Positions 414 through 53,984 of a DNA stretch of 64,000 nt are shown one piece after another (position 1 is the first letter of the stretch; each line of letters begins with the position of its first letter). The notes beneath the pieces are model-generated. The model ran no database searches, was not told the DNA's origin, and saw only the letters and a program-made list of their open reading frames with translations. The position numbers were made by a program, and so were the translations under genes. This stretch comes from Rhododendron vialii. Its lineage: Eukaryota > Streptophyta > Magnoliopsida > Ericales > Ericaceae. Location of the stretch: positions 2,676,001 to 2,740,000 of the forward strand of contig NC_080558.1 in NCBI RefSeq assembly GCF_030253575.1. The letters are read 5' to 3'.

Positions 414-3400
414 CAACTTGCTTCGCATGGGTTATTCGACGTTCATGCAAGGGCTACTGGTGACATTCATATCGATGACCATCACACAAATGAAGATGTC
501 GCCCTTGCCATTGGAACGGTAATCTACTTCTGGGTATCTGTTCAATTGACTTCTCTATTCTCCATGAAAGTGACAGGATGTAACATAAAAGATGTACTGG
601 GGAACATTGCATTTTCCATTTCTACTGATTTTTTTTCTAATTGGTAGCATGAAGACCAGTATTAGTGTTAAGTGACAGGACCACTACCAGCTCAACTAAC
701 TCAACTCCACCAACTAGTTCACCAACGAATTCAGAAGTTCCACCACTTGTTCCAGCTGGCAGTTAGTTAGTTAAATGGAAATTAAATTCACTTGTAATTC
801 AGTTGTGATTCTTGGTTTTCATTTCATGTTCATTTCAACTGTCTCACTGTATAAATAGAAATAGCTTTCTTTGTAAAAGTATGTTTTTCAATGAAGATTG
901 AGATCTTTTCTTCTCTGTTTATGAAAGTTGTCATGGTATCAGAGCCCTAAAGGCGCAAGCCCTAGCTTACGATCCAAACTCTTTCTCAACGATTCTCTGG
1001 TGCAGCTTCAATCTCTTCAATGGCGTCCTCTTCTGCATCATCGACTTCCGCATCTACATCTTCGATGTCTGCCATGTATTTGCCTAATTCTCTCACATTT
1101 CTGATTTCAAATTTTCAGTCCTTTGTTACGGTGAAGCTTGAGAATTCTAATTACTTTGCTTGGAAAACTCAAGTTGAGAATGCTTTGAAAGCAACAGATC
1201 TATTTGGTTATGTAGATGGTTCTATTACCGCTCCCTCTTCTCACATCGTTGATAGTTCTAGAATCAAAACCCTAAATCCTGACTTTGCTCAGTGGACTAC
1301 TATCGATCGTATGCTTTTGTCTTGTCTCATCGCTACTCTCACTCCTCCAATTTTACCACATATTGTTGGTTCTGATCATACTTTTCAATTGTTAAACAAG
1401 CTAGAGGAGAAATTTAGTGTTTTATCTAGATCGCATGTACATGATCTGAGACGCAAGCTTTTTAATCTTCACAAAACTGGATCAGTGGATAGTTATCTTG
1501 ATTCGGTTAAGGAAATTGTGCAAAAGCTAGCTGCTTCTGGTTCTAATGTTGATGATGAGGAGCTCATTTTTCATACCGTCAATGGTTTAAAGGAAGGTTG
1601 TTATTCATCCTTCAAACAAATGATCCGTACTCGCATTGAAGACCTGTCCTTTGGTACATTTAGTTCTATGCTCTTAGCTGAAGAATTGCATATCTCTCAA
1701 GATGACACAACCACATCTACCATTCTTGTTGCCCCACACCAGGCTTCCTCTATTTCTAACCCTAATACAAACTCTAGCTCATCCTCTGGGCTTTTACCTA
1801 CTCCCCCATCTATTTCTATGCCCACACCACCTCCACCATTTCAGTTTCCCTTCCAAACTTCTTCTCCTCAAAACTATCTCCCTTCGTTTCAACCAAATTA
1901 TTCCGGTCCACGGTTTCACTGGAACAATAACCACAGATTTCGTGGAACTCAGTTTGGTACTCAGTTTGGGAATCAGTCTGGTGCTAGTTGGAATGGCACA
2001 CCTAGTCCTAGTTTCCAAGGCTCCTATGGTTTTCCAAGCAACTTCCACTACCAGTCTATACCAGGGGTTGGAGGAATGCCTGGTATTACTTGTCAAATCT
2101 GTGGAAAGCCAAATCATCAAGCATCTACCTGTCGTCATAGAGCTAATCTGGGCTATAGACCTTTTGGTCAGTTTGGGAGACATTCGTTTGGCCAATCTGC
2201 TGGTTTTCCTCATGCACCACAGTTTGGGCCTCAATCTGGATCTACCACTTCTCAAGCCTTCTATACCTTCTCAGATCCCATGGGCTATTATAACACTGGT
2301 TTTTCTGTTGATCAACCCTCATATGCTCTTCACATGCCTGATTATGATAATAGTGCTACAACATCCTCACAGCTCAATGGAGTACATGCTACTTCTCATG
2401 GAGGCACATCTTCTAGCTATGGTTCCACTGTCTCACCATGGTATTTTGACTCAGGTGCCACTTCTCATGTAACTCCTGATGCTTCCCAAATATCAGCACC
2501 CTCAGGAGTCACAAACACTACAAGTGTCACAGTTGGCAATGGACAAAACATTCCAGTGGCTCACTCAGGTAAAGGCATACTCTCTACTACTCCTTCTTGC
2601 ACATTCACTTTATCCCATCTTCTTCATGTTCCTCTTATCTCTCACAATCTTCTCTCTGTTTATCAATTTGTTCATGATAATAATTGTTCCATTACTTTTG
2701 ATTCTCGTGGTTATGTCATTCATGACAACACCACTCACCAGGTTCTACATCAGGGGACATGTCACAAAGGGCTTTACCCCCTGCTTCCTTCTTCTGACAC
2801 AATTAAAGTTCTGCTGAGTCTTTCCTCTTCAGCTACTTTGTGGCATAGAAGACTTGGTCATCCTCATGCTGGTTTACTCCAACACCTGTCTAAAGCTTAC
2901 CAACTCCCTATTGGTCCTGTTACTACTTTAGACTGCTACTCTTGTAATAAAGCAAAAAGTCACAAACTTCCTTTTTCTGTGTCCACCACTCACACCACAA
3001 CACCTTTTGAACTCTTACACATGGATGTATGGGGACCATCCCCCCCATTCTGTCTTTTTCTGGCTATAAGTACTACCTTCTTATCGTAGATGATTTCACC
3101 AAGTACAGCTGGTTGTTTCCTTTACATGCTAAATCTGATGTCAATAAACATGTTCAGGCTTTTAAAGCTTTTGTCTCTACTCAGTTTTCATTATCTGTTA
3201 AAACTATTCGAACTGATAATGGTGGTGAATTTCTAAACAAGTTGATGACTACTTTCTTTTCTCTTTATGGTATTCTTCATGAAACCACTTGCCCTTATAC
3301 TCCAGAACAGAATGGAGTAGCCGAGAGAAAGCATGGTCATCTCATTGAGACAGCCATCACTCTCCTGCAACAGGCCCAACTGCCTATCCAGTTCTGGTTA

Positions 3401-6400
3401 GAAGCTCTAACCACTGACTTGTATCTTATTAATCGATTACCTAACTCCTCTATTCATTTTCAAGTTCCATTTCATGTTCTTTACAAACACGCACCTGATT
3501 ACTCTCTTCTCAAACCCTTTGGCTGTTGTTGCTTCCCTTGGCTTAGACCATATGCCTCCAACAAACTTGTCCCTAGGTCTACTCCTTGCATCTTCCTTGG
3601 TTATTGTTCCGCAACTAAGGGCTACAGGTGTCTTGACCCCACCTCTTCTAAAGTCTATATATCTAGACATGTTAAGTTCTTGGAACATGACTTTCCTTAT
3701 CCTCAACTTCACTCTCTCCTTTCTCCTTCATCCTCTTCTGTTCCTTCCTCTTCTCCTCCTATGTTTAAAATTCCAGGTCCCCATTGTCCTCCTTTCTCTT
3801 TTTCCTTGCCTCAGTCTATTTCTCCTCCTAGTTTTTCCTCTCCTCCTACACCTGTTCTTCCTTCAGAAATACAGAGCTCAGGTGTGGCTATCTCTGCATC
3901 TTCTCCTCCCTCTATTTCTCCACCACCTCCTGCTCCTCACCATTCTATGACCACTAGGTCCAAAAATGGTATTTCTGTTCCTAAAATACCCTTTTCTTTG
4001 CTGGTTCAATCTCCCCCTCTTACTGAACCTTCTTACTTTAGAGAGGCCATGGCCTATCCTGAGTGGCAAAAAGCCATGTCCGAAGAGTACACTGCATTAC
4101 TCCAACAGGGCACTTGGACCTTGGTCCCTCTGCCTCCTAATGCTCCTGTTATCGGATGTAAATGGATTTATAGAATCAAGAGGAATTCAGATGGTAGTGT
4201 AGCTCGGTACAAAGCCCGATTAGTTGCCCAGGGCTTTCAGCAGACAGAAGGTCTAGATTATACTGAAACTTTCAGTCCTGTTGTCAAGCAGCCCACAGTT
4301 AAGTTGGTTATCTCTCTTGCTCTTCATTTTGGTTGGGAAGTTAAGCAACTAGATGTTTCCAATGCATTCCTTCATGGCACAATTCAGGAAAATGTCTACC
4401 TCAAACAACCTCAGGGGTATGTCAGCACTCAATTTCCCTCCCATGTCTGCAAATTACATAAGGCTTTGTATGGACTGAAACAAGCCCCCAGGGCCTGGTA
4501 TGAGATGCTGTCTCAAAGTCTTGTTCACAAAGGGTTTCACAATAGTCTAGCTGATTCCTCTCTATTCATCTATTCTAATCACCAAGATCTAGTTTATGTC
4601 TTGGTATATGTAGATGACATTCTCATCACTGGGAATAACACTACTCTAATTCAGAATATTATTGCTGGGCTCAGTTCTGATTTTGCTATTAAAGATTTGG
4701 GTTCCCTACATTATTTCTTGGGGATTGAAGTGGTTCCAGTCTCTGCTGGTCTTGTGCTATCTCAGACCAAATATGCTACTGATCTTCTTCAGAAAGCTGG
4801 TCTTCTTGACTGCAGGCCTTGTGCTTCTCCCTCCTCTCTAAAAGCTTCTCCCCATACAGCACCAGATTCTCCCTTTGCGAATCCAGAGTTCTTTCGAACC
4901 ATTGTTGGCTCTCTCCAATATCTCACCCTTACCAGACCTGACCTCTCCTTTGCTGTCAATGCTGTTTGTCAGCATATGCATAACCCCATGGATAGCCATT
5001 TTACTGCAGTCAAACGTATCCTTAGATATGTCAAGGGGTCTCTTAATCACGGTCTTCTTTTTACCAAGAGTTCTCTGCATCTATCAGCCTTCACAGATGC
5101 CGATTGGGCAGGTGACTCTGTGGACAGACGCTCTACAGGAGGCTATTGTGTCTTTTTGGGGTCTAATCTTCTCTCTTGGTCTGCAAAAAAACAAGCTACT
5201 GTGGCTCGCTCCTCTACTGAAGCTGAATACAAGGCCTTGGCTAATACTACTGCAGAAGTTATATGGTTCAGTCAACTCTTGAAAGATTTGCATGTGTGTT
5301 CTCCTTCTCCACCTGTTGTGTGGTGTGATAACATTTCCGCTATTGCCCTTGCTTCTAATCCTGTCTTCCATGCTCGCACCAAGCATGTTGAAGTGGACTT
5401 TCATTTCATCAGAGAAAAAGTGTTGCGCAAACAGTTGGTTATCAGATTTGTTCCTTCTCATTTACAAACAGCAGATATCTTTACAAAGCCTCTCACTACT
5501 GGTCGTTTTCAATTTCTTAAGGAGAAACTGAGGCTGTCAGATCTTCCCTCCTCAGTTTGCAGGGGTGTGTTAAGTGACAGGACCACTACCAGCTCAACTA
5601 ACTCAACTCCACCAACTAGTTCACCAACGAATTCAGAAGTTCCACCACTTGTTCCAGCTGGCAGTTAGTTAGTTAAATGGAAATTAAATTCACTTGTAAT
5701 TCAGTTGTGATTCTTGGTTTTCATTTCATGTTCATTTCAACTGTCTCACTGTATAAATAGAAATAGCTTTCTTTGTAAAAGTATGTTTTTCAATGAAGAT
5801 TGAGATCTTTTCTTCTCTGTTTATGAAAGTTGTCAATTAGAATATCTGTTAAGATATTTTTTTGGGTGTAGTTTTGAGGATTTCTTTGGGTTTCGGCTAA
5901 TGACTTTGTTTCTGTTTCATGTCATTCATTCTGGTGATGCCTCATTTTTTTTAGCACCGAACTGTATGTGCATATGCTAAACACACTCATGCATGTATCT
6001 GAGTTTGAGTCGTAGAACTTAACTTTCTGGTTCATGCAGGCTTTGCTACACGGACTTGGTGATAGAAAAGGAATTAACCGGTTTGGTGATTTCTCAGCTC
6101 CACTTGATGAAGCACTAATTCATGTGTCACTGGTATGTTACCAGCACATATGGTTTTTATTGTGTGTTCCTATAATTGCTACGGGGTTAGTAGTCTAAAG
6201 ACCAGCTGATACTATGTTCTCTTGGCCGCTACGTGCTTTAGTGCATGGTTGCATGGTAAATCACTTTGAGATAGCTAGGGATGGATGCTGAAACTTCTTT
6301 TTGGTCACATGTTTAAGTTTGACAGAAAAGCCTATTGTGGCTCCGTGTGTGGTGTTTGAACCAGGAAGTAACCCAGTATTTTGGGTTTGCAACTTAATCG

Positions 6401-7733
6401 CCAAAGGATTGGGAACAGTGTTTGTTTTTCTGTAAGAAATTTTGAACACAATATTTTTCCTTGAAAATTGTTGAAAAATGATGCGTATATCTGCTACTTT
6501 TTGATATTTTTCTTATTCAAACTTTGCCATTTCTTACGCGTTCTGTACTTCTGATCTAGGATTTATCTGGACGGCCACATTTAAGTTATGATTTATGCAT
6601 ACCTACTGAGAGAGTTGGAACATATGACACACAGGTAGCTTATCTCACTGTTTTTTTTATTTGTATGATGGAGGTTGCTTGAAATCCGGTTGTCATACTT
6701 GTTTATCTGCATAGTTCTGGCTATGATGACGTTATTTGACAAGTTTATCAGAGTCTAACACTGCTATTTTGATCTTGGCCTTTTTTATTGCTTTACACTG
6801 GTTCACTTTTGAGTATCTCTTCAACAAATTCGTTGATACATTTATGGGATTTGTTTTACACAGCTTGTGGAGCACTTTTTCCAGTCTTTGGTGAATACGT
6901 CTGGCATGACCCTTCACATCCGGCAGGTATGATGAATCCTCAAATTTCATAAAGCTCTTAAACAGAGCGTTCGGGAGAAAATTTCAACTTGCCCACAGTC
7001 CACACGTCTGTTATTCGTATCATCATAAAGCTCACAGAACTTTTATGGGTTACTTCCAATCTCACGTGATTATTTCAGCCTACTATTTGAGTTTTTTACG
7101 TCAGGAGGTGTGGTAAAGTAATATCTTCGCTTTTGTCAAAAACAGCTTGCTGGAAAAAATTCTCACCATATAATTGAGGCGACCTTTAAGGCTTTTGCAA
7201 GGGCTCTTCGACAAGCAACAGAATATGACCCACGTCGTCGTGGGACTGTGCCAAGGTTTGAGATTTTTTCTGTCTACAAGGATTGCATGAACAATTGAAT
7301 TTCATTTTTGGTTTCTTCAAATGGGACTGTGTAGAGAATGTTCCATCGTCTATGTTAGAGTAATAGGCTTGCTATGAAGATGCTTTAAAGAAAAGGTTCA
7401 ACAGCTTTAGTAAATGGTTTCACAGTTCACCCTATTTTCATAATTCTTGTATGAAAGAGATGCTCTTTGGTGTTTGTGTTCTATCTAAGTTTATTTTTTT
7501 TATGTTGAAAGTCACCGTATGCCTTGTTCTGGAAAATGGTTTTTGACATCAACCCTTTGAGTTACCATCGCTCACAGGTACCGTATTATGAAGGCTTAAG
7601 TGCTTAGTTATTTGCCTAATCACGAAAGCAGCCCATATTATTGGGGAAATTGAACCTATGGAACTAAATTTAAGACTGTTTTCGCCATTTTGTCACTGCA
7701 TGCAGCTCAAAAGGGGTTTTGTCCCGCACTTGA
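414..7733 (+). CDS. HISN5: Imidazoleglycerol-phosphate dehydratase, 3' part of gene (5' exons lie before the window)
   Basis: Sixth step of histidine synthesis: dehydrates imidazole-glycerol phosphate to imidazole-acetol phosphate, in plastids. Visible exons are 414-518, 6040-6132, 6560-6634, 6864-6926, 7146-7255 and 7706-7733 (stop TGA at 7731). All junctions are GT-AG and the frame is continuous, giving about 157 residues from [10 protein letters not shown] to KGVLSRT. The metal-binding motifs DDHHTNED and [11 protein letters not shown] are present, as are the conserved blocks [17 protein letters not shown] and [18 protein letters not shown]. The sequence is close to what I recall of Arabidopsis HISN5A. 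The transit peptide and N-terminal half (with the first DHML-type motif) are outside the window. The intron 519-6039 holds a 5.2 kb Copia element; without it and its target duplication the intron would be about 346 bases. Coding exons look intact. Confidence 0.97.
666..933 (+). repeat. 5' LTR of the Copia element
   Basis: 268 bp, begins TGTTAAGTGACAGG and ends GAAAGTTGTCA. Contains TATAAATAG near 850. It matches the 3' LTR at 5568-5835 with no difference that I can find by eye. Confidence 0.96.
5568..5835 (+). repeat. 3' LTR of the Copia element
   Basis: 268 bp, follows a short purine-rich stretch (GCAGGGG) that probably serves as the polypurine tract. It is followed at 5836-5840 by ATTAG, the second copy of the target site duplication. 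Confidence 0.96.
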
Positions 7734-9739: not shown

Positions 9740-9870
9740 TTTCAAGCATTTCAACTCTACATTTTTACTCAAATGACATGGTTGTAAATTTGAGAGGAGA
9801 AATAGCCTTGCAAATTCGAATAAAAGTACAAGTCTCCTTTGATTTGAGTAAAAGTCAGTATTCGGCAAAA
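9740..9870. repeat. Fragment related to the element at 18237-18791
   Basis: The sequence from about 9752 (CTACATTTTTACTCAAATGA through AGCCTTGCAAATTC to TTTGATTTGAGTAAAAGTCA) resembles 18330-18455, the interior of the GAGCATC/CTCCAGC element in the FRL4 intron. Probably a partial or diverged copy of that MITE family. Confidence 0.45.
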
Positions 9871-10149
9871 ATAGTTTCAGTCAAGATTTGGTTGTATACT
9901 TAAAGAATATACTTTGAGAGCTTAGTCACGATGAACTTGAAATGAGAACTATCAATTCAGTTGGAGTGACTTCATGAACTGATGAAAGGATTATATAATT
10001 ATACACAATTTATAACTAGACTTCTATGTTTTTGTTGGAGTTGAACATCGGGTCCATATGTTTGAAATCTACATCTATCCACACGGAGCCTTTGGGTTTT
10101 GTTTCTGGATTCCCAGTTTATTGTTTTTTTCTATGTCGGTGCTCGGATT

Positions 10150-12970
10150 GGAGAGGTGAAGAGGGTTACAAAGAGATCACTGTGGCAGTGAGAACAGATT
10201 GAGAAGATTGAGAGAGTTTGATAGAGAACAAGATATGAGGAGAGAGTTGGGTGAACTTCTCATGAAGCAAGAAACATATTGGGGTCAATTTTTACCCAAA
10301 AACAATATTGGGATCAACGGTCAAAGCTGAACTGGTTAATGATGGGAGATCTTAACACCAGGTATGTCCATATGGTGGCTAGTGGCTACTCTAAGGTGTC
10401 GGATGAAGCGGATTGCCTTTTTTTGGTCAAGGAAAATGGGGAGTCTAGTTTTTGGCCACAGGAGATCTCTACTCACATTCTTGAACACTTCCGGGCCCTT
10501 TTCAGTGGTGTAGGGGTGGGGCAGAATGGGATTGTGCCGGATGGGGAGTGTGCTACTCATATTGATGTTCTTTCCATAATGGATTAGCATCTCACCGAAG
10601 ATCAAAGTGCTTGCTTAGTCAACCTTTCACTGTTTCGGATGTTAAAATGGCTTTGGATCAAGTGGCGGGTTGGAAATCTCCGGGTCCTGATGGCATACCA
10701 ACTGCATTTTACCAACAAGAGTGGTCGTGGTGGGGGAGGTGCTGACCTCTTCTGTATTATATTTTCCTTCAGACTTGATTTATGCTTAAGGAGGTAAATA
10801 GAACTTTGCTTAAGAAGATCAAAGTGCTTGCTTAATCAACCTTTTACTGTTTCGGATGTTAAAATGGCTTTGGATCAAGTGGCGGGTTGGAAATCTCCGG
10901 GTCCTGATGGCATACCAGCTGCATTTTACCAACAAGAGTGGTCGTGGTGCTGACCTCTTCTGTATTATATTTTCCTTCAGACTTGATTTATGCTTAAGGA
11001 GGTCAATAGAACTTTCATTGCCCTTATTCTCAAGAAGAAATCCCCACAATCTATTCATGATTTTCGACCCATTAGCTTATGAAATGTTTGCCTATAAGTT
11101 AGTTTCCAAAACTCTTGCCAATTGCTTGAGGTTGTGTCTGGGTACTTTCGATTGTGGAAAATATCTTATTGGTGCACAAAGTTCTTGATTTTTTCCCAAA
11201 AAGAAAAAAGAAGGCAAAAATTCTCCTCTAGCTCTGAAAATAGACATGAATAAAGCTTTGGATCGAGTCAATTGGGCTTTTCTTCGTCGGGTTCTTCAAG
11301 TTACGGGTTTTAGTTCAATGTGAGTCACTCTTATCATGGAATGTGTTGGCTTGGCTCTGTTTCGTTTTCAGCTTTACTCAAAATCAACCCACTGAGTTTT
11401 TCTCTCTGTCAAGGGGATCCGCTCTTCCCTTTTCTGTTTATTCTAGTTGCCCAAGCTCGCCTCTCATCTTTAGCGTCCACCTGTTTCACACCTTTTTATT
11501 TGCCGGTGATAGTTTATTTTTTCTTGAATTCAATGTGGAACATTTGTGGTGCTTCAAGTTGGTTTTGGACGCCTATTGCTTTCAGTCGGGACTAGGTATT
11601 ACTTCCCAAAAGTCGGAAATTTTTGTTAGCCCAAATATGTCCTGTGTTGACAGAGCTTTGTTAAACTCAACTATTCAATATTCCTATTGTTCAATCCTCT
11701 GGTATCTTGGACAGATTTTTGAGTCGTCTACAAGGGTGGAAAACCCCGATGTTGGCATTTGGTTCACTTTGGGCATTACCAGCAGAGTCATCATTAATTA
11801 ATTTAGGTGAATGGGCATTCCATTGGGAGGCCACATAATGATTATTCCGTTCTTTGCCAAAAACATTCCATCGATGAGAATCATCATTTTTCATTGTGGT
11901 ATTTTTCCCAGGCAATTATTGGATTCTATTAGCTTGTTTCAAGGACTAAAACTATTTGGTTGCTTTAGTTATGTCTTTTGTTTCCTTACTCATAATTCTG
12001 AGCTCATTTTTATCAAGACTCAGGGAGCATATTCGGCAATCTTCAATTAGCATCATTTTTATGTTGAATTTATGTTAACAGGAGAGGAGGGTCCAGGAAG
12101 GTCAACAACATGGAAAACTGCTTTAGTGGGCACATCTTCGGAACAGTGAACATGCATGCACGATGGTGAAGCATTTGTTTAACTTGGTGGATCCTGATCA
12201 TGAAGGTGATTAGAACTTTTAAAGACCAATGGATGCCTAAGATGCCTAATCCCTTTGTTGCTTCTTCGGGTGTTCCGTCTATATTTCAAGGTGATGTTTC
12301 AGTGTCTAGTCTTATTGATGCTGGAGCAAAATTGTGGAGAGTTCCTTTGGTAAGGGCTTCATTTTTTCCGGCTAATATTGTTCGCCACATGTTGGCCATC
12401 AACTTCCCTCGTAACAGGGATCAAAATCAGCTGGATGAAATAGTTTAGTGGCACTAGAAAGATTGTAAGGAGGACCAGTTTTTATTTCCCAAACCAAATA
12501 ATGGATTTCGGTCAGATAATCATGGAAGGTGTCACAAAGGTGTTGTGATAACTGATGGAGCTTGGAATATAAAGGATATGCATTCTAGTATTGGATGGGT
12601 TCTAACAGAGGAGGAGGGGGAATTACTGGAGCAACAAGGCAGAAGTACCCTCGCTTCTTCAGCCTTTCACTCCGAATGTCTGGCTTGCTTGGATGCGATG
12701 ATATGGTGTTTCGAGCACAATTTTTGTCATATCACAGTTGCTACGGATTGCAGTTCACTGCTGGATGGAAAGAAGGCTATGAAATGGCAAGAGGAACCGG
12801 TGATTCGTGAATTACATTGTTTGTGCGATGCTATTTCTTTTGTAAGGTTAATCGTGTTGTAGTGCAACAAGCTCATGTAATAGCGTAAGATATAAGAGCT
12901 CTATAATCTCTGCTGCAACTGTATCTGTTTAATTATATATGCATTGTCCGTTTCTCAAAGAAAAAAAAAA
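10150..12970 (+). mobile_element. Decayed L1-type LINE (reverse transcriptase and RNase H remnants)
   Basis: Pieces of a plant non-LTR retrotransposon in their normal order, scattered over all three frames. They are a linker with MGDLNTRYVH (about 10340), the RT entry motif KSPGPDGIP (about 10680, repeated near 10900), KIDMNKALDRVNWAFLRRVL (about 11238-11300), SLCQGDPLFPFLFIL (about 11405), and an FAGDSLFF piece where FADD-type residues are expected, followed by GITSQKSEIFVSPN (11500-11640). Near the 3' end, 12545-12862 encodes a recognisable RVT_3-type RNase H domain (ITDGAWN, SAFHSECLACLDA, TDCSSLL). An A-rich run at about 12960-12970 fits the 3' tail. There are many stops and frame changes, and the endonuclease is not seen. 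Old and inactive. Confidence 0.85.
10600..11015 (+). repeat. Tandem duplication (about 217 bp) inside the LINE remnant
   Basis: Copy 1 starts at 10600 and copy 2 at 10817; both begin GATCAAAGTGCTTGCTTA and run through the RT motif KSPGPDGIP to TTTATGCTTAAGGAGGT. The copies differ by a few substitutions and about 10 bp missing from the second, so the duplication happened well after the element had inserted. Confidence 0.9.
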
Positions 12971-14394: not shown

Positions 14395-15163
14395 GGCCCC
14401 GTTTGATAAGGCTGTGTTCCACAACCCAAATAACAACTTATTTTTTGTTGAATAAGAAGGCTTGTTCCCAAAAAATAACAAGGAGTTGCTTATTTTTCAG
14501 AATTTATATAGGAATCAATGGGTGCCGGAGAGGGAAATCGTATCAGCGGCCGCGCCGGGTCATCTCCGGCCACCGGACGACCGATCCGAGCCGTCCAAAA
14601 ATTATAAAAAAAAAAACCGAGGGGGCCGTCGCGGGGAATCAATGGCATCCGAGGTGTGTAGGGTGCATGATCCGAGCACCCCTTTTCCGTGTATATATGA
14701 TCATCACATATACACTGAAAATGGGTGCTCGGATCAAGCACCCTACACACCTCGGATGCAATTGATTCCCGCGATGGCCCCCTCGGTTTTTTTTTTTTGA
14801 ATTTTTGAACGGCTCGGATCAGCCGTCCGGTGGCCGGAGACGGCCCGGCGCGGCTGCCAGTACGATTTCCCTCCGCCGGCGCCCATTATCATAGCAACAG
14901 TCTTATTTTTTGTATAAGGCAACTTCAAGCTAAAAAATCATGTGTTTACGCAAATAATTTTCTTATCACTATGGATCTTGTTTGATAGATCTCATTGAGA
15001 TCTTTAATACGGTGCAAAAAAAAATTGAATTTACATGATTTTTGAGTTTGAAAATGTAAAAGGAACTTTTTATTTGGGTTTTTGTGGAATGACCCTTCTT
15101 ATTTTTTAAGGAGAAGTGGTAAAATAAGTACTTATTTTTTAAGAAGGTTTCCGGAACGGGGCC
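14395..15163. mobile_element. Inverted-repeat element (GGCCCCGTT ends) interrupted by a foldback element
   Basis: The left end GGCCCCGTTTGATAAGG and right end CCGGAACGGGGCC are inverted. The right half (about 14920-15163) is a reverse-oriented copy of the element at 54671-54909, sharing TTTACGCAAATAATTTT, ACGGTGCAAAAAAAAATTGA and AAATAAGTACTTATTTTTTA. A separate 369-bp foldback element (14518-14886) sits inside it. Non-autonomous; superfamily not settled. Confidence 0.65.
14518..14886. mobile_element. Foldback element, Mutator-like MITE candidate, nested
   Basis: An almost complete 369-bp palindrome. The left arm starts ATGGGTGCCGGAGAGGG and the right arm ends CCCTCCGCCGGCGCCCAT; the axis is near 14705. 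Its arms share blocks with 16966-17339, such as CGGCCACCGGACG, GAATCAATGGCATCC and GTGTGTAGG. No target duplication is clear at this copy. Confidence 0.7.
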
Positions 15164-16965: not shown

Positions 16966-17339
16966 GGGAAATGATACACCCACCGAGGGTACTCCCATCG
17001 CACCACCCACCGCACGTCGCCGGGCCCACTCCGGCCAATCCGAACCGTCCAAAAATTCTATCAAAAAAACCGAGTGGGCCTTCGCGAGAATCAACGGCAT
17101 CCGACGTGTGTAGGTGCTCGATCCAAACTTTCATTTTTAACGGCTCAGATCATCTGATTTTTGAAAGTTCGGATCGAGCACCTACACACGTCGGATGCCA
17201 TTGATTCTCGCGAAAGCCCACTCGGTTTTTTTGATAAAATTTTTGGACGGTTCGAATTGGCCGTCCGGTGGCCGGAGTGGGCCCGGCGATGTGCGGTGGG
17301 TGGTGCGGTGGAGGTACCTTCGGTGGGTGTATCATTTCC
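16966..17339. mobile_element. Mutator-like foldback MITE with 10-bp target duplication
   Basis: The ends GGGAAATGATACACCCACCG and GGTGGGTGTATCATTTCC are inverted, and the arms extend almost to the axis near 17150. It is flanked by ATAAAAGTAA at 16956-16965 and 17340-17349. A 9-10 bp duplication with long terminal repeats is characteristic of Mutator-like elements. The arms share motifs with the element at 14518-14886. Open frames across it are artefacts of the palindrome. Confidence 0.85.
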
Positions 17340-17643: not shown

Positions 17644-20600
17644 ATGGGCTCCCTCTCCGACTCCCCCGGCGAGTTCAACTCGCCGACTCACCCACCCCCG
17701 CCGCCGAGTCTCGACGAGTTCCAAAAACAAACCTCCCTAATGACCACCTGCACTCTTCTCTGGAAAGAGCTCACCGACCACTTCACCTGGCTCGAACAGA
17801 CCCTCCTCACCAAATCCAACTCCCTCAGCTCCAAGCTCCAAAATCTAGACGCCCAAACCACCCACTCCCTCCAAGTCCTCGAGCATCGCGAGCTCACCAT
17901 CGACGACGCCGTCTCGATCCAAGTCAAGAAAGCCGAGGAGAGCAAGTCCGTTGCTCTGATTAGCGTCCGAGATGAAAACGAAAACGAGAACGAAAACGAC
18001 GTCGTTGGTGAAGTTGATGATTCGGAGGGGTTGTTGATGAGGCTGAGGTTTTACTGTAGGAGAATGGACGGGGAAGGGATTTGGAGGTTTGTGACGGGTA
18101 GGAAGAAGGAGTTGGAGGGGATTAGGGCTCAGATGCCGGTGGCGTTGGGTGACTGCGTCGATCCAGCGAGATTCGTGATGGAGGCTATTTCGGAGGTATA
18201 AAGTTTTTGTTTTTGGATATTTAAAGCTTATATTTCGAGCATCCATCTCCAGCGTTTACTCAAAGTTTGACGTATATTTTGAGGAAAAACTTCACTTGAT
18301 ATACAACACGCCGATGGACAACCTCAAATTTTAGAGTAAATTAGAGTAAAAGGTTCATGAATGGCATAGTTGTACATTTGAAAGGGGGAAAAAAGTAGCC
18401 TTGCGAAATTTTGGTAAATAGTGGGGTTTCCCTTGATTTGAGTAAAACTTAGTTTGGTACAGGATGGAGTCGAGAAGTGGAGTTGATTTTGAGGGCTTTT
18501 ACTCGAATTTTGGGTTTGTATGAAAAAAAGGTTAAGGGCTGGAGATAGAGGTGTCAAACTGGTCGGGCCGATCCCTTTAGCTTCATGCCAACCGCGCTTT
18601 GTGCCGTGCCGGTCCATCTCCAACTGAGTTTTGGTGGGATAAAAATGTATGACAGCTAAAAACTTTGTATTTGTTGTGTCGTGCCCTGTGCCCTTCTAGA
18701 ACCGTGCCGTGCTGTGCTCGTGCCGGGCCCGTCTAAAATCTTGTGTCTGTGCCAACCCGGCATGTATGACACCTCTAGCTGGAGATGCCCTAACAAAACC
18801 TAAAAGATACAGCGGCTAGTGGCTACAAATGACAGACCTAAATGTGGCTGCATTTGGGGGCGTTAGCGAATTGTCCGACATTGGTTGGGCATAGAATGTG
18901 AGGTTGCTTAGTAACATGAGGGATCTCTCCATTCATTGCCAATTGGTTTTGGGTTGGATATAAAGTTTCCACATCAAAAGGGCCATTTAGTTCCAAGTGG
19001 CCACGAAATTTGCAATGGAAAATGCCTTTGGGCTCCATGTGTGCTTGTGGATTGGCGTAGAGCTAGCTCATGGTCATGCTCGGATGGTAGGAGAGTCTTG
19101 GCCACCTCTTCCTTTTACTTATTCCCACTAATCATTAAAAAAACACAGAACCATTCAGCTCACTAGATTAACTTCCCTAGGGTGACATGATGACATAGAG
19201 AACATTTGAGGATTATGGTATCCAAAGGGGGCACGAACTCAATCGAAACAATTCCCTTGCCTTTGTTTCAGCTTGGCATAAAACATTTTTTGTGTGTTAA
19301 CACCAGGGTTTTAAATTAGGAAATGCTAACCTCATCCCAATAGGCAAATGGTTAAAAGGGCATTGATATATGTGAAAGGTTTATGGATGTCCGGAAAAGT
19401 GCATATCTGTGGAAAGTACATTGAAACTCTTAACTTTTTTGGCATTTAGTGTGGATTATCCATGGCCTATTGGGCTGATGCTAGCAAAACTGTTTACATA
19501 AAGGCCATTACGTATCATATCGGTCGTTACGTAATGGAATTTTGGACCTCCGATAACGTTATTTACTTAACATATTGGCTGATACGAACCAATACGGTTC
19601 AATATCGGCCAATATATGTCCGTATCACTGATATCGTTTCGTTTCCCGTGCCGAAATCTAAAACCCTGGTTAACACTAACATCCTCTCTGGCTTCCTTCA
19701 CCTTCCATTCTTGCCTAGTGCCTGAGTCCACTTGTTTGAGAGGACAAGAAGCACTAGAGTGCTCAAACCTTACATTATGGACGTTTGAGGTTTCCAAAGC
19801 CCTTCAACCCTGATTTCGTATGGGTACCCAACTACCCATACCAATATCGATCACAAAAGATTTAGACAGACTCATCTAAAAGGATAAGCTGCTAGAAAGA
19901 GACATGCTAATATAGTGAGGGTGTTTACCAAAAGATTTTGGATCGACCAAGTGACTAGGAATTTATCCCCAGTGTCTGCTAAGATGCTCCGGTCTTGGTT
20001 GATGCTATTATGTAAGAAAGACCATTTTTTTAGTAAAAGATTAGAGATATAGCTGGTACTATATTTCTATCTTTGACCTATCTATCGAGGGGTGCTCTTA
20101 TCGTATTTGTGGTGCGCCGTATCGCCCTAAATCTAAGCGACAAGATTTATTGTCAGATCATTTCATATTGTCAGCTGTCAAGTAGGAACTCATCTAAAAG
20201 CTTAAGCTATTAGAGAGGGGGAAGTTTTAGTATTTGCATTCATAACAGGTGTTTCCGGTGGACAAGAGGGCGGAAAGCAGTGATAGAGCGAATGATTTGG
20301 GCTGGGCTTGTGTTCTGATGTTGGAGTCATTGATTCCGTCCGTGGTAGACCCGTTTTTGGGGAATTCGCGGCTTCTGGTGACGCCGAGCATGAAGGAACG
20401 GGCAAAGGAGATAGCGGAGACATGGAAGAAGAGCTTGGACCAGCGTGGGGGAATCGAGAATGTGAAGACTCCGGATGTGCACACATTTTTGCAGCATTTG
20501 ATTACTTTCGGGATTGTGAAGAAGGAGGATATTGATTTGTATAGGAAGCTTGTTGTTGGGTCTGCGTGGCGGAGGCAAATGCCCAAGCTTGCTGTGTCAC

Positions 20601-25487: not shown

Positions 25488-25786
25488 GACAAAACCCATC
25501 ACTTCTCAATTGAATGCTAGGCTAAAACCTCCGTGTTCTCGTACTTCTATCTACACTTTGATTCCTTATCCGGATTCAAGTCTCGCTATCTCGTTCATTT
25601 CGAATTTTCCAGGAATTCGCGCGAAAAGCGCAATCCTTTTTCGCATACCAACTGTTCGATAAAATGCTTCTTAGAACAGTACCATAGACACTAGACCTAC
25701 TTCATACCTATCTCCCACCGCAGTTTCACAGTCCTCAACTCCTCAATCAGTTAAAAGACTCCTTCATTCTTTGAATCGGAATCCAA

Positions 25787-26971
25787 ATGACATTAGTTTT
25801 CTCAAGAAGATGCACCACAATCCCACCAGTGGTGAATTCTTGTTCTCTTTCAAGAATCCTTTGTTTTTCTTCTACTACATCAACCTTTCTAGATAATGAA
25901 AAGAATGAAGCAACCCAATTATCTTCAGGTAAAGAAAAGGGAGTTGCTTCTGGAAAAGAAAGGAATGGGGTCAATCTTTCATCGTTCTTTTCGCATGGTA
26001 GAGCCCATTTGGAGGGTTGCCGAATTGAACTTGTAGACGATGATTCGTGGCGGGTTTCCTCGGGTTTAGCCGAGGCATGGAGAGGAACAAATGTGGCATT
26101 GAAAAGGAAGGGTTTGGTTAAGGAAGCAGTTGATGAGGTGGTTAAGTATGATCTGGATTTTGATGATGTTGAGGATATGAGGATTAGGGGAAATCTTTTC
26201 TACAAGATTGATAGGGATTCCAAGGAGTTTGAAGAATATAGTTTCGACTTCCATCGTAGGAAATCGTCGAAGAATAAGAATGAACGGAAAGAGAGTGAAA
26301 AGAAGATAGGCTCACATAGTAAGTTGGCTTCTGGAGTTGACAAATCATTGAATAATAGAGAAGAGAGAAAACAAATCAGAAAGAGGGAAAACCAGATTGC
26401 TAACTTGGCTTCTGGAGCTGAAAAGTCCTTAATGAATAGAGAAGAGAGAAATGAGTTCAAGAAGAGGGAAAACCCAAGTTCTAACTTGGCTTCTGGAAGT
26501 GGAGGACTATCTCAACTTGTTACAAATGAAGCTCTTAATAGTACGATTCAAGAAATGGAAAATGTTTGTGTTGGGAAGAAGGTGAGGACTCTCACCTTCA
26601 ATCAGATCACAGCTCCTTACCATGAACCGTTTTGCTTAGACATTTACGTGTCGAAAGGATCGGTTCGTGCCTGCATTATTCACCGGGGGACTAGCAAGGT
26701 TGTTGCTGTGGCCCATTCGATATCCAAGGACATGAAATTTGACCTTGCATCGAAAAAGGATGCGACAACTTGCGCTGCAGTGGGAGAAGTTTTGGCTCAA
26801 AGAGCCTTGGCTGATGATATTCATAATGCGGTTTACACGCCAAGGAAAGGGGAGAAATTGGAGGGGAAGATTCAGATTGTACTGCAGTCTATAATTGATA
26901 ATGGGGTTAGTGTGAAGGTTAAGATCAAGCAGAGAAAACTAAGGAAAACTGGTCACTTACCTAATTCTTAG
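25787..26971 (+). CDS. Ribosomal protein L18p/L5e family, probably mitochondrial
   Basis: Single-exon gene of 394 residues. Residues 1-35 (MTLVFSRRCTTIPPVVNSCS, then a Ser/Arg-rich stretch) lack acidic residues and look like a mitochondrial presequence. The C-terminal part (about 275-385) carries the uL18 fold: APYHEPFCLDIYVSKGSVRA, ASKKDATTCAAVGEVLAQRA, and GKIQIVLQSIIDNG. uL18 proteins bind 5S rRNA in the large subunit. The middle (about 140-245) is a highly charged, low-complexity linker containing three 27-residue repeats. The protein is much longer than bacterial L18 (about 115). I recall a homologue next to FRL4A in Arabidopsis. Whether it is a true ribosomal subunit or a derived relative is not shown by the sequence. 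Confidence 0.9.
   Translation: MTLVFSRRCTTIPPVVNSCSLSRILCFSSTTSTFLDNEKNEATQLSSGKEKGVASGKERNGVNLSSFFSHGRAHLEGCRIELVDDDSWRVSSGLAEAWRGTNVALKRKGLVKEAVDEVVKYDLDFDDVEDMRIRGNLFYKIDRDSKEFEEYSFDFHRRKSSKNKNERKESEKKIGSHSKLASGVDKSLNNREERKQIRKRENQIANLASGAEKSLMNREERNEFKKRENPSSNLASGSGGLSQLVTNEALNSTIQEMENVCVGKKVRTLTFNQITAPYHEPFCLDIYVSKGSVRACIIHRGTSKVVAVAHSISKDMKFDLASKKDATTCAAVGEVLAQRALADDIHNAVYTPRKGEKLEGKIQIVLQSIIDNGVSVKVKIKQRKLRKTGHLPNS
26324..26505 (+). repeat. 81-bp coding minisatellite in the L18p gene
   Basis: TTGGCTTCTGGA recurs at 26324, 26405 and 26486, exactly 81 bp apart. Each unit encodes about 27 residues of the form LASG..KSL.NREER...KREN. The third unit is partial. The period is a multiple of three, so copy-number change would keep the frame. 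Confidence 0.92.
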
Positions 26972-41237: not shown

Positions 41238-43703
41238 TCAAGTACTAGTAGCACCCTCGTTAAGCCTAGCAGCCGCCGTCATGGACGTGGCCACCCCTCC
41301 TGGATTTGTGGTCAAGTTGGGGTTGTTCCTCAGCTCCGCGGTTACCACTCCTTCCGCATCATCCCTTGTCGCTACCTTATCCGCCGGCAACCTCGCGGTT
41401 GCACCCTGCGTTACACACCATCCGCGGTTAGAAAAGATGTACTTTGAACAAATTAAAAAAGTTAATTTGATGGATTCACATTGACCATTTCTTAACACTA
41501 ACCCCAGTCATTTCATGAAAAATGTTGCCTATAGATCAAATTAGGCTAGAGCTACAATGTTGAAATACTCGATTAACTACGAGCGAAATGCCTGCGTACG
41601 CAGATTTCTGTGCACAGAGTCACAGACCTAAGTATACGACGCACATGATCCATGCATTGCTTTTTTGTGACTCGTGTAGGGTTTGGAACACATCTGTTTT
41701 CGAATTTGTGCACATAGACTTTTGATGAACCAATGGATTTTTTTGAAAAATCTTACAGTGAGCACATCAACGAGCTTGATTTTGTCCTCGTCGCGATCCA
41801 ACCCGGCATTGAAAGCCGCAGCGGATTGGGCCGTGGCTCCAACTCCACCGGGAGCTATAACGTTGGAGCCAGTTGCCCTAACCTCCGCGGCCTGAACCGC
41901 AGCAGCATCGCTCTGGTCCACGGGCTTGTTTCCGGCTGTAGCTATAGCGGCCTCGAGTGCTTCCCCTATGGTTATTTGAGCCTGGACCACCGCCGCTCCG
42001 GCGGTTGTTGCCTGTACTTCTGTGTACTGATACACTTGTCCCAAGACCTATAACAAATCAAAGACGTTTTCTTTCACTAGCACTATTGTAATTAGCTTCC
42101 TTTTTCTTTTCTTTTTTTGTACCAAAGATCTTTTAAAATACGTGGAGATAAATGAAAAGGATTTTGATTTTCGCGCTTCATTTTTTTTTACTAATGGCGC
42201 TCCATTTTGTTCATGAAATTACTAGTAATTTCACGTTAAAAGTGAAGCGTCACTGATAAAAAGTGAAGCGTGAAAATTAGTTTCCAAATGAAAAACAAAT
42301 TACTAATTAAGATGCTAAACAGGCATGTCAAGATTATACATTTTCGTTATATTCGGATGTCTGGCGCCACAGTGAATTCGCACCCTTCGACTAATCTCGA
42401 AAGTCAATGACTAGATAAACATTTACTGGTGTTTTTCACTTAATAATTAAAACGCTCTCACGTGGTAGAGAGAGTATTTGAGAATAAAATCTCGACATGC
42501 CGGTTTTCCATTCAAAATTACCACTCATTTATTTCATAACTTGAAAAATACAAATATTCAACGTGGATTATTCAAAATTCAGTTCCAAATTCCATTCCCA
42601 ACAAACTATTTAGCAACGTTACTCTTTGAAAAACTACCACAATGATTTGTTTTGATCCGCGAAAGTTTATTTTGTTAGAATGATTAGATTAACACATTGA
42701 AAGAGATCATTTAATATTTAGGTATATCATGGGCTTTCTATTTAAAAACTTCTTCCTTGGTATGTTTCTTTCTAGGACAGCAATATATATATTGTTGTTC
42801 GCTTGTAGCTCGAAGCTCAGTTCGTTGGGATTTTATTTGGCTCAACTTAATTCGTTTAGTAGAAAGTTTTTTCCCAGGTGTATCATATGCACCTATTTTA
42901 TGGTTCATAACATTTTAGCGTGGTACATAATTTTTGTTCTAGAATTTATAGTTTTTCAGCAGTACGATTTGTAACATTTTTATTATGATTCATAACATTT
43001 TAGTGTATCTCGTAATCTTTATACGATTCACAAATTTTTAGCAATACGATTTGTAACATTTGCTATAGAATTCATAACATTTTATGGGTACGTGTTTTAA
43101 GAATGCATATGATACACACCCAAATGAAAAGTCTGTATTGTAGTCTTTTTCGAGTGGAAAAAACCGAAGTTAACCATAGTTTTGACTCGTGTCAATGCGT
43201 TTAGCTTGAATGTAAGGGCTCAACTCGTTTGTAGAAGCTCATTTAGTCTCTAACCGAACAAAAGTTCTTCAAAAACTAATCAAGCTCGAGCTTGAATATT
43301 TGGACTAGTCTCAACTCTCACGTTTCACGTTTGGTCGGGAGAGAGAGAGAAAGAGAGAGACCTGTCCCCCAACTGACTCAGTGACAACCCAGGTACCAGG
43401 ATACTCTGTGTCTGTGGCCGAAACCGCAACCCCTCTGTCGCGGGCCACATCCGTCGCATCGTCGCGGCCAACGACCCCGGCTCTCTCGTTCATCGCAGCC
43501 GCTGCCTGCATGACCGCCGCGGGACCGCCACTTGGGACCTGTCCAAACACGGAGGCTTCAGCCGTCTGCATCATGGCGGCGTCTTGCGGGGTGATGGGCT
43601 GGCCGGCGAGGTCGCCGGAGACTTGGAATACGTCGCCGTACTTGATCGGCTCTTGTTGCCGCCGTTGTGTTTCTTGAGGCCGGCGTGGCTGTTGTTGACT
43701 CAT
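41238..43703 (-). CDS. Seed maturation protein, LEA group 5 (SMP/ECP31/RAB28 type)
   Basis: Three exons on the minus strand: 43703-43362, 42047-41757 and 41405-41238, all phase 0 and GT-AG, 266 residues. The start is MSQQQPRRPQETQ at 43703, where the family begins; the frame runs on upstream into leader sequence. Three SMP domains: one per exon, with PIKYGDVFQVSGDLAGQPIT and QDAAMMQTAE in exon 1, ITIGEALEAAIATAGNKPVD and QSDAAAVQAAE in exon 2, and DKVATRDDAEGVVTAEL in exon 3. Ala/Gln/Gly-rich and hydrophilic, as expected of a late-embryogenesis protein protecting cells during seed drying. Length matches the family (about 260). From memory, SMP genes lie near FRL4A in Arabidopsis. Seed-specific ABA control is likely from the family, but I did not identify the elements. 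Confidence 0.96.
42877..43120. repeat. Inverted-repeat element in SMP intron 1
   Basis: The left GGTGTATCATATGCACCTAT and right GCATATGATACACACC ends are inverted, with ATTCATAACATTTTA/G words repeated inside. MITE-like; no clear target duplication. Confidence 0.55.
43190..43310. repeat. CTCGAGC-rich dispersed repeat
   Basis: GGGCTCAACTCGTTTGTAGA and AATCAAGCTCGAGCTTGAAT belong to a dispersed repeat also visible at 36530-36760 and 54015-54340. Confidence 0.5.
43341..43360. repeat. GA tract at the 5' splice site of SMP intron 1
   Basis: On the gene strand the intron starts GTCTCTCTCTTTCTCTCTCT, so the CT tract begins directly at the donor site. Confidence 0.85.
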
Positions 43704-43814
43704 GTTGCTGGTCGGATTACTGAAAAAAGGGGTCAGATTTTCCGGTGTGTTTGATGTGTTTGAGGAGTGTTGATCCAGAGAATTTAGAGAGAGAGAGGGG
43801 TATCGGTGGGTCAA

Positions 43815-44582
43815 GAGAGGGTGATGTGTTGGACACGTGGATTTTGGGATGACAAGTGGCAGATGACAAAAAGAGGTGATGGTACACGTGGAGCCCTGAT
43901 AGTTAACCCGTTGGCGGCTGAATTACACGTGGCAGTTGGATGGCCAACTAGAGTGCATGAGAAGTTATTTTTATTTGGCTGCTGATTTTGCCACTTTTTT
44001 TTTTGTTAACGTCATTCCTTTACAAGTGTTTTTTTTTGTACAAAAATATACTTAGAAGAGTGGCGTTAACAAAAAAAGAATAATAAAATCATTTCATTTT
44101 GTTTATGCCAAAATTGTAATGCATAAAAGTCTGTACCTTACACATGGATTAAAGTTTGTATGCATAACAATTTTGACACAAACACAAACTATTTTGGCAT
44201 TAGCAACACCTTTTTTTTTTTTTTACTATTAATAGAAAAACTCTCAGAGAATAATTTTGTTCACCCTCTCTAAAAGAATGTCAACATTACCTTCTCTTAT
44301 TGATTGAAATGGTATAAAAATCACGAAATTATTACACTTTTTGGTGCAAGAAAAACAAAATCTTTGTGGTTCCTACTCTAAATTTTATAATTCCTAATTT
44401 CCTACACCCATTTTGACCAATGAGATGGAAGGTAAAATCATTCTCAAATTTATAATTCCTAATTTCCTACACCCATTTTGACCAATGAGATAGAGGGTAA
44501 AATCATTCTCAAATCCTCGTCAAGAAAACGCAGCATAATAAGAAACAACTCAAGAAATGAACAAAACCCTTTGCATAATCCC
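43815..44582. other. Region upstream of SMP
   Basis: Contains ACGTGG-type words near 43835, 43885 and 43927 (ACACGTGGATT, TACACGTGGAG, ACACGTGGCAG) on the side upstream of the gene. These resemble ABA-responsive G-box cores, which would suit a seed LEA gene. A tandem duplication of about 66 bp lies at 44380-44512 (ATTCCTAATTTCCTACACCC twice). Confidence 0.5.
43834..43935 (-). promoter_or_regulatory. Candidate ABRE/G-box cluster upstream of the SMP gene
   Basis: Three CACGTGG cores (about 43836, 43887 and 43928) lie 130-230 bp upstream of the SMP ATG. CACGTG(G) is the core of the ABA-responsive element bound by bZIP factors, and LEA genes of this family are typically ABA- and seed-induced. 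The positions are read from the sequence; the function is inferred. Confidence 0.6.
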
Positions 44583-50863: not shown

Positions 50864-53800
50864 TCACCAATAATCTCTACAAGAGCATTGATTATCTCTA
50901 AACCGATGAAACCGGTTATTGTCTCTTAGAATAATTTCTCTGCCAACAATGCCTGAGATGAACTTAATTGCGCTATGGCAATCGACACAAACCCTAAGAT
51001 TTTTCGTTATCCGTATAGGGATTCCAGGAGGTAAAGCAATTAGGCCGAATGCAAGGGCTATCTTCTCACTATGGTACCAAACTTCTGTTTCTTTCTCTTC
51101 CTCTTCTAAATCATAGAGGGCTTGTTTGGTGTCGGGTACGTAGCCAGCTGACTTCATATCCTTCTTCAGCTTAGTAAGCATTTTCTGGATTTCTGAGTTC
51201 ATTTCATGAGAGGTGTCTTTTGCTTGGAACACATGGACCAAGTTTTTCACAGATATCCAACTGCAGCCCACGCCCTTCTTTATTCCAACATCCTTCATTT
51301 CCTTCCTCACAAGGTTAGCATCTTCCCACCTGAATTAATATAATGTGATTAGTTAACAAGAAAAGCAAAATCGTAAACGTCAAACTGCAACAATCCCACC
51401 GTTACATGTCAGAAGACAATCACAAACACAGTAACAGAAAGTTGATCCTGTTATTAGGATCGACCAGACTAATCAATATCGTGCCTGCAATCAAATTGTC
51501 TCAGGGAGTTCACTGAGAAAGCCAGCGAGCAGGGCTTGCATGTTATTCAAGCAGCAAGAAACAATGAATGTTTTGACCGCCGGAAGGAAACTTTGCAAAA
51601 ATGCAAGCTAGTTCAGTTTCAATTCAGTATCAACCTTACGTGCGACTCTCACCACATATGGCTCGAGAAGCATATGAAAGGATGTTCATTAGTTGACATC
51701 AAGAAAAGTTATACCACAGGTCCACAAGAGAAGTTTGTAGCAAGAATGGTTTGACCTACTCTCTAAGCAAAGTAGGGGAGGAGACCCCGCAACAAAGTCC
51801 AGAGATAGAAAGAGCACTCCATAGAGAATTCACTTTCGTATTTATCAAAAGTCTACCAACTGCCAAGCAAAAAATCTACTGAGCATTCTCCTATTTCATT
51901 AGTTACGACTTCAACTTGTGTCCTGGATGTATCCTACTTCATATTAATGATGTGTGAACTACCTCGGTAGAAATATGTTGAAGTGTGTTTTCGACTCGTG
52001 CTAGAGCAGCAGTTTTCCCTGATAGTAGAAAACTATGGGACTAAGATTAACAAGTGCAGCAAACAGAGACAACTGATCAAGTCGTCATGCTTCACTTCTT
52101 TGAGCATGTGCTAAAGGGGAATAACTTTTGAAGTAACGAAGCTGGTGAATCGAAACAACTTGTGAAAGTGATACATACATGGACTTTCTGAAGTAAAAAA
52201 AAAAGCAAAACCATTTCGTGGGGAACTTGTAGAAAGTTTATTTGGAGTAAGAATTTCAACACCTGATAAGGAAGTGAAAAAAGGTACCTGCCAGAAGCTG
52301 CAAACATGTTCGAAAGCAATACATGGTTGCCAGAGTCATGTGGATCAAGTTCAAACAAGTTTTCAGCTGCAACCCTCCCCAGTTCTGGTTTCCCATAAAC
52401 TCTACAAGCCCCAAGAAGTGCCCCCCAGACCGAAACATTTGGACGAACAGGCATTCTCCTTATAAACTCATAGGCTTCCTCCACCTTCCCTGCTCGCGCA
52501 AGTATGTCCACAACACATGCATAGTGCTCAATACCCGGTTCAATCCCATACCTTCCTCTCATCGACTCAAATATCTCCATTCCCATTTTCACTTCCCCGG
52601 CCCTACTACATGCCGATAATACACACACAAGGGTCACATAATTGGGCCCCACCTCATGGATTCCACATGTCATTTCTTGGAACAATGCCAGAGCCATATC
52701 CGCATGACCTTGGTGTGCATACCCACCTAGCAACGCATTCCAGGTCACCGAATTTCTCTCACCCATCTCATGAAACGCTGTCTCACAATCCTCTAAGCTT
52801 CCACATTTCCCATACATGTCAACAAGTGCACTACCAACGAACACATTCTTTTCTACGCACGCTTTTGCAGCAAGCGCATGGACTGACCTGCCCAATTCGA
52901 GCCCTGCAAGGCCAGCACAAGCGCTCAAAACACTAGAAACCATATAATCCGTTGGCTCAATGCCTTCTGTCCTTGCCTTCACGAACACCAAACAAGCCTC
53001 CTCTTGCTCATCATTCTGCTCATAAGCAGCCACCATCGAACTCCACGAAACATCATTCCGACTACTCATCCCACCAAAAACAACCTCAAAGCAACCCATC
53101 TCGTGACATTTCCCATAAAAATCAATCAACCCATTTGCAACCGAGACATCTGCCTCGTACCCGTACTGAATCACAAACCCATGTAACTGTCTCCCCAGTT
53201 TCAAATCCTCAGCATCTGAGCACGCATTGAGAAATGCGCAAAACGTAATCGCGTCACCCCCTCCACCATTTCGCCGAAACTCAATAAACATAGACACAGC
53301 ACTACCAGGCCGCCCGTCAAGCACATAATTCGAAATACACGCATTCCACGTCGCAAGATTTCTGTGCGGCATTTCATCGAACACCTTACAAGCATCATCT
53401 CTAAGCCCCGTCTTACAGTACATATCAAAGGCACTGCACCCAACAAACGCATCTACCATTTGCCCGTCTTTAATTGCCAACCCATGAAGCTGTTGCCCGG
53501 CAACCGGCAACCGGAGACAACCGGAGGCTTTAAAAGCGACAGGGAAGGTGAAGTCGTTAGGGTTTACGCCGTCGCGGCACATGCTGGAGAAGTGGGATAG
53601 GGAGAGGGAGAAGTGGCCGTTACGGACAGCGCCGGAGATCAGGGAGGTCCAGGTGACGACGGAGCGATTCGAGGTGAGTCGGAGGAGGAGGTGGGCTGAG
53701 TTGGGTAGGTCGAGTTTGGAGTACATGTGGATGAGGTGGTTGGAGAGGAAGGGAGGAATGGTGGAGAGGGTTTTGAGGATTTGGGCGTGGGTGGAGCGGC

Positions 53801-53873
53801 CGAGGAGGGGGGAGTGAGTTGACACGGCGGACTCGATGAGGGAGGCGGCGGCGGCGGGGGTTAGGAAGGGCAT
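50864..53873 (-). CDS. LOI1: DYW-type PPR protein, LOI1/MEF11-like RNA editing factor
   Basis: Two exons on the minus strand: 53873-52288 and 51329-50864, 683 residues. The intron of 958 bp interrupts the SGR-WED codon. The start at 53873 ([20 protein letters not shown]) is the first ATG; further upstream the frame offers only TTG. A string of PLS-class PPR repeats (about 30-520; for example [34 protein letters not shown]) is followed by E/E+ motifs and a DYW deaminase-like domain with HSE (zinc/catalytic), CVDCH and the C-terminal CSCRDYW. Such proteins bind specific organellar RNA sites and edit C to U. The similarity and length (Arabidopsis 684, from memory) point to LOI1/MEF11, a mitochondrial editing factor. 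No clear long presequence is visible. An intron is unusual in this mostly intronless family. Confidence 0.94.
51330..52287 (-). other. Intron of the PPR gene
   Basis: 958 bp with GT (52287-52286) and AG (51331-51330). Reading through it gives a frame ending within 200 bp, so an unspliced transcript would lack the E+ and DYW domains. No transposon ends noticed. Confidence 0.8.
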
Positions 53874-53984
53874 TTTGTTGAGAGAGAGCCATCGTTTTGC
53901 TAGAGGTGGTGGGGGCTTGGTTGGTGCATGGCAAATGCAGCAACGAGGATGTCTGGGCCAACTATTACTAGCACCTAGAACCAA

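Follow-up and report, generated by a model that had tools for sequence, protein, structure and literature searches.

The stretch of DNA analysed here (the window, 64,000 nucleotides of Rhododendron vialii, assembly GCF_030253575.1, contig NC_080558.1, positions 2,676,001 to 2,740,000 of the forward strand) begins inside HISN5, the gene for imidazoleglycerol-phosphate dehydratase (IGPD, EC 4.2.1.19), an enzyme of the histidine pathway. The third intron of this gene holds a Ty1/copia long terminal repeat (LTR) retrotransposon. Exons 1 and 2 are located just upstream of the window (in L009), and the part of the gene inside the window lies on the plus strand, with the following features.

1-2, + strand: final two nucleotides of HISN5 exon 2, from the joined reading frame and donor GTTAGT; the remainder immediately precedes the window (L009:9878-10000)
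414-518, + strand: HISN5 exon 3 (GT/AG sites, open frame, IGPD match)
519-6039, + strand: HISN5 intron 3, 5,521 bp with the element, reduced to 346 bp when the element and one ATTAG are taken out
6040-6132, + strand: HISN5 exon 4 (GT/AG, IGPD match)
6560-6634, + strand: HISN5 exon 5 (GT/AG, IGPD match)
6864-6926, + strand: HISN5 exon 6 (GT/AG, IGPD match)
7146-7255, + strand: HISN5 exon 7 (GT/AG, IGPD match)
7706-7733, + strand: HISN5 exon 8, including the stop codon (GT/AG sites, joined frame)

All borders of exons 3-8 are GT/AG, and the protein that these exons encode aligns with plant IGPD chains of known structure over 156 of 157 amino acids (E value 3.4e-92). The matched chains are named 'Imidazoleglycerol-phosphate dehydratase 2, chloroplastic' and presumably come from Arabidopsis. 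Joining the eight predicted coding exons by script gives an open frame of 280 amino acids. Exons 1 and 2 can be paired in frame in two ways, yielding 288 or 280 amino acids, and the 280-amino-acid version, in which exon 2 begins GARIGEV, was taken. The two isoforms of Arabidopsis, HISN5 A and B, are reported to have 270 and 272 amino acids (PMC10978614). These matches point to IGPD over the mature enzyme, with a putative plant transit peptide assigned by position only. A processed copy or pseudogene is ruled out by the introns and the full 280-amino-acid frame. A preliminary description of this stretch had called the exons and splice sites intact, as the GT/AG borders and the open frame bear out.

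The element itself, which spans 5,170 bp (window 666-5835), has the following parts.

661-665, + strand: left target-site duplication ATTAG, read from the sequence; a single ACTAG stands at four paralogous sites
666-933, + strand: 5′ LTR, 268 bp, 100% identical to the 3′ LTR, with a TATA box at 850
934-945, + strand: primer-binding site TGGTATCAGAGC, directly 3′ of the 5′ LTR
966-3089, + strand: first open frame, with Copia gag (Retrotran_gag_2/3), Pol_BBD and GAG-pre-integrase (open-frame list; Pfam on window 1005-3086)
3011-5668, + strand: second open frame, in another phase, with the integrase core from profile position 28, SH3-like and RVT_2 (Pfam on window 3074-5665)
5559-5567, + strand: polypurine tract region (GCAGGGGTG), purine-rich and ending just 5′ of the 3′ LTR
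5568-5835, + strand: 3′ LTR, 268 bp, identical to the 5′ LTR
5836-5840, + strand: right target-site duplication ATTAG, read from the sequence

This anatomy is that of a Ty1/copia LTR retrotransposon of the Pseudoviridae type. The two LTRs are direct repeats with TG...CA ends (TGTTAAG...GTTGTCA), they are flanked by a 5-bp target-site duplication, the primer-binding site, which we take to be of the initiator-Met tRNA type, and the polypurine tract stand in their expected places, and integrase precedes reverse transcriptase, which is the Copia domain order. No RNase H model is listed among the Pfam matches. The preliminary description had given both LTRs as identical at 268 bp with a perfect ATTAG duplication, and had named many differences between the LTRs as an observation that would speak against it; the alignment of 666-933 with 5568-5835 is identical at 268 of 268 positions (0/268 differ). 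A chance repeat is ruled out as an explanation of the LTR pair by the 268 identical bases together with the duplication and the domains.

The element lacks the intact polyprotein of an autonomous copy: its coding capacity is split over two overlapping frames. The shift of frame within the integrase region makes this copy look defective, provided that the assembly is right at this point; a sequencing error is a possible source of the shift. A programmed gag-pol frameshift was thought unlikely, since the phase changes in the integrase region and not at the gag-pol border. The broken frame makes autonomy less likely and leaves the assignment to Copia unaffected.

Gene and element are both on the plus strand, so that the element lies in sense. 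It starts 147 bp past the donor of intron 3 (left ATTAG counted), with 204 bp between its end and the acceptor (counting the right ATTAG), and the expansion of this intron from about 346 bp to 5.5 kb proposed in the preliminary description agrees with the measured lengths. Its AT content is 58%, versus 64.5% in the host intron pieces. The element had also been credited with two LTR promoters and two polyadenylation (poly-A) signals. A TATA box is present in the LTRs (TATAAATAG, at 850 in the 5′ LTR). The poly-A part holds at motif level only: a motif scan finds no AATAAA in the LTRs, where the nearest variant is AATGAA at 890. Two AATAAA motifs occur at 2946 and 3143, in the internal part of the element.

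The absence of differences between the LTRs (0/268) limits their divergence to at most 0.0111 per site (95% upper bound). At substitution rates of 1.3e-8 and 7e-9 per site per year, the 95% limit on age becomes 0.43 and 0.79 million years (Myr), respectively. Identical LTRs of 268 bp thus give only a bound on age, of roughly 0.4-0.8 Myr; the earlier wording 'very young' fits the perfect identity but goes further than a limit of about 0.43-0.79 Myr.

A genome search gave nine matches, in four of which the intron flank (560-665) aligns with other genomic places at 86-87% identity; the other five are LTR matches, two from the element itself. All four of these paralogous sites are continuous across the insertion point, with a single ACTAG and without the element, which suggests that presence of the element is the derived state. 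The sites are paralogous and not allelic, and show the pre-insertion state rather than a frequency in the population.

Three of the four pieces (C7, L010/L011; C5, L016/L017; C2, L014/L015) are copies of one repeat of 6,835-6,869 bp that are 97.1-99.4% identical to one another and carry HISN5 exons 2-4 with their introns at about 84-85% DNA identity to the gene. Helitrons begin with TC at the 5′ end, finish in CTRR after a hairpin at the 3′ end and insert between A and T. All three full copies of the repeat start with TC, end in CTAG with a short hairpin on the 3′ side and sit between A and T, and by these termini the repeat can be classed as a putative Helitron. No Rep/helicase was found in the copies, although no systematic search for it was made, and two of the four frames of at least 90 amino acids listed in one copy had no Pfam match. 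The fourth piece (C5, 5.01 Mb; L012/L013) is shorter and shares 82% identity with the gene and 91-92% with the Helitron-type repeats. Any assignment of reads to HISN5 should use a reference that includes these diverged copies of exons 2-4. Among the papers listed by literature searches, none was seen that connects HISN5 with a retrotransposon insertion or Helitron capture; three that mention both the enzyme and 'retrotransposon', once each, seem unrelated from their titles.

Close relatives of the element are scarce in the assembly. A search of the whole genome with the LTR gave five candidates, all five scored: the two LTRs of the element, one at 89% and two at 70-74%. The 89% match (C7:4604514-4604795) stands as a solo LTR: it is flanked by a separate AAAAT duplication, identified by eye, and no match to the internal part of the element was found beside it within the 10 kb fetched. 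A heuristic search with a 701-bp piece of the reverse transcriptase (RT) region scored 40 of 116 candidates. Among these 40, the next full-length match is at 81%, no further copy falls in the range of 81-100% over the whole piece, and a 124-bp stretch on C10 matches at 98%. When searched by piece, the C10 fragment (C10:25583720-25583899; L046:4920-5099) covers about 180 bp of the RT region at 96.5-97% identity; it stands alone, with no LTR or other element parts matched within the 10 kb fetched.

By its LTR and RT pieces, the element looks like an orphan in this assembly. A near-identical donor may lie on the other haplotype, may be unassembled, may have been missed by the heuristic search or may have been lost. 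The solo LTR at 89%, with its AAAAT duplication, and the 96.5-98% C10 fragment make horizontal transfer a weaker explanation of the orphan, as together they imply that relatives of the element resided in this genome earlier. A 28-base LTR pattern had no matches in viral contigs.

No complete HISN5 other than this one seems to exist in the genome. A protein search of the 532.6-Mb, 13-contig assembly with exons 3-8 as query gave 12 matches from 15 candidates. Five of the six queried exons were matched at the HISN5 locus, exon 8 (28 bp) being too short for such a search, and the remaining seven matches fall in four other places and concern exons 3-4 only. Exons 5-7 were matched solely at this locus, and no second complete HISN5 was found. 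Because of this, the description of the gene as 'essential' is plausible, although by copy number in the assembly only, the rest being pieces. In Arabidopsis, loss of both copies of HPA, another gene of the histidine pathway, is reported to be embryo-lethal (PMC8042742).

Two further partial duplicates lie close to the gene. An inverted duplicate of the exon 1 region (C2:2672067-2672703; L009:6067-6703; 678 bp aligned, 82.7%) is found about 1.6 kb upstream of exon 1 on the opposite strand, and could yield double-stranded RNA if read through. Downstream of HISN5, window 9772-10194 contains a second copy of intron 1/exon 2 sequence (88-95%) that includes a 14-codon piece of exon 2.

The host splice sites are intact, and the element bears the anatomy of copy-and-paste integration. 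We consider that the whole is probably best explained by a recent sense insertion of a Copia element that is silenced and spliced out, with HISN5 most likely still working. The central claim of the preliminary description, a recent sense insertion of Copia into an intron of HISN5, is in line with the LTR identity, the Copia domains, the IGPD match and the shared plus strand. Its caution about effects, namely that the gene may still work while transcript levels or isoforms could differ between alleles, was well placed. As the anatomy indicates, a Ty1/copia RNA would have been reverse-transcribed and integrated into intron 3 through a 5-bp staggered cut, within about the last 0.4-0.8 Myr as bounded by LTR identity and the above rates. 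Because no close donor copy was found in the assembly, the donor has probably been lost or sits on another haplotype. The host would then silence the element and remove it by splicing together with the whole 5.5-kb intron, and a minority of transcripts may terminate within the 5′ LTR or initiate from either LTR, by analogy with three intronic Copia systems: ONSEN, RAC and COPIA-R7. A severe splicing defect would carry a high cost for homozygotes, since the assembly yielded no further complete HISN5.

Precedents exist for such tolerance. Intronic ONSEN insertions in Arabidopsis, three of them among eight homozygous insertions, are reported to be more often excluded whole by splicing (PMC12112155), and RAC, an antisense Copia element in intron 1 of the soybean alpha-SNAP gene, is described as having no overt effect on mRNA or protein (PMC6712407).

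Several considerations weigh against this account. The RAC precedent is imperfect because RAC is antisense, and seven ONSEN insertions are reported to have produced alternative start or end sites (PMC12112155). The sequenced plant may carry the element on one haplotype only, and a recent allele would look undecayed even when functioning badly. Termination in the LTRs may be weak because they hold no AATAAA. The date is loose with LTRs this short, gene conversion between the LTRs could also have made them identical, and a close copy could have escaped the heuristic search, which scored 40 of 116 RT candidates.

One alternative is that the element strongly lowers HISN5 output through early transcript ends or disturbed splicing, so that this is a near loss-of-function allele surviving through heterozygosity. 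The sense orientation, the TATA box in each of two LTRs and the AATAAA motifs at 2946 and 3143 would all fit such an effect, and the donor and an empty allele could be on an unassembled haplotype. Moreover, the 5′ LTR of COPIA-R7 is reported to act as a proximal poly-A site in RPP7, kept in check by EDM2 and the histone mark H3K9me2, and COPIA4 at RPP4 likewise has a poly-A site in its 5′ LTR (PMC7529245). However, the LTRs at HISN5 lack AATAAA, and the exons and splice sites show no decay, although decay would not be expected so early in a young allele. We regard a strong reduction of output as unlikely.

Very unlikely, in our estimate, is an insertion older than it appears, with LTRs that owe their identity to gene conversion or chance. 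The status of a lone copy, with relatives at 81% in the RT region (40 of 116 candidates scored) and 89% in the solo LTR, and the broken coding frame would be in keeping with greater age, but the perfect target-site duplication and the 0/268 LTR differences argue otherwise, as does the 96.5-98% C10 fragment, which implies that near relatives were in the genome not long ago. That a retrotransposon was misjoined into HISN5 during assembly is extremely improbable: this one assembly offered no support for it, the duplication is exact, the host intron resumes on both sides colinearly with the paralogous copies, and neither the LTR search nor the 40 of 116 RT candidates that were scored contained a near-identical second copy to drive a misjoin.

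Elsewhere in the window, Frigida-like, ribosomal L18-domain, seed maturation (SMP) and PPR proteins are encoded at 17644-18198, 25778-26968, 43314-43829 and 52095-53912, respectively, a neighbourhood that we take to resemble those of Arabidopsis HISN5A and HISN5B. Nested inverted repeats at 14530-14873 and 16967-17339, with arms of 63-106 bp that are 82-95% complementary, are related to each other and are probably small foldback elements or of the miniature inverted-repeat transposable element (MITE) type. Rfam gave no matches within the window at gathering scores.

A silenced and spliced Copia insertion could also have made HISN5 recently dependent on heterochromatin-aware processing of the EDM2/IBM2 type, such that full-length mRNA is contingent on silencing of an orphan sense element. 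We hold this to be a rather doubtful possibility; if true, histidine supply would vary with epigenetic state and allele. Introns of this type carry H3K9me2 and non-CG methylation, and the full-length mRNA of their genes depends on IBM2/EDM2. In rice, heterochromatic introns are reported in about 11% of gene models, most of them linked to transposable elements or repeats (PMC7145194).

Among known systems, ONSEN (ATCOPIA78) resembles the present case in its recent intronic Copia insertions, which are often spliced out and sometimes contribute LTR start or end sites (PMC12112155), but ONSEN is an experimentally induced multi-copy family, whereas nothing at HISN5 bears on stress response. RAC (the Rhg1 alpha-SNAP copia of soybean rhg1-a) is likewise a full-length intronic Copia element of similar size (4.77 kb); its host gene is still expressed, and its presence is reported to vary among haplotypes (PMC6712407). 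In contrast to RAC, which is antisense, lies in intron 1, has an intact polyprotein and has similar genomic copies, the HISN5 element is in sense, lies in intron 3, has a broken frame and has no close sibling that was found. COPIA-R7, in intron 1 of Arabidopsis RPP7, is also a Copia element in an intron of a working gene, where premature transcript ends can arise in the 5′ LTR of the element (PMC7529245). RPP7 is an NLR gene with known EDM2/H3K9me2 control, whereas HISN5 is a housekeeping gene, found in one complete copy. An event of this type is well known and ordinary by itself; what HISN5 adds is that no second complete gene was found, that the element looks like an orphan and that the empty sites are Helitron-borne. 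If an element-free allele still segregates, the locus would offer a clean natural test of a young sense Copia element in a housekeeping gene, with the same promoter and the same exons.

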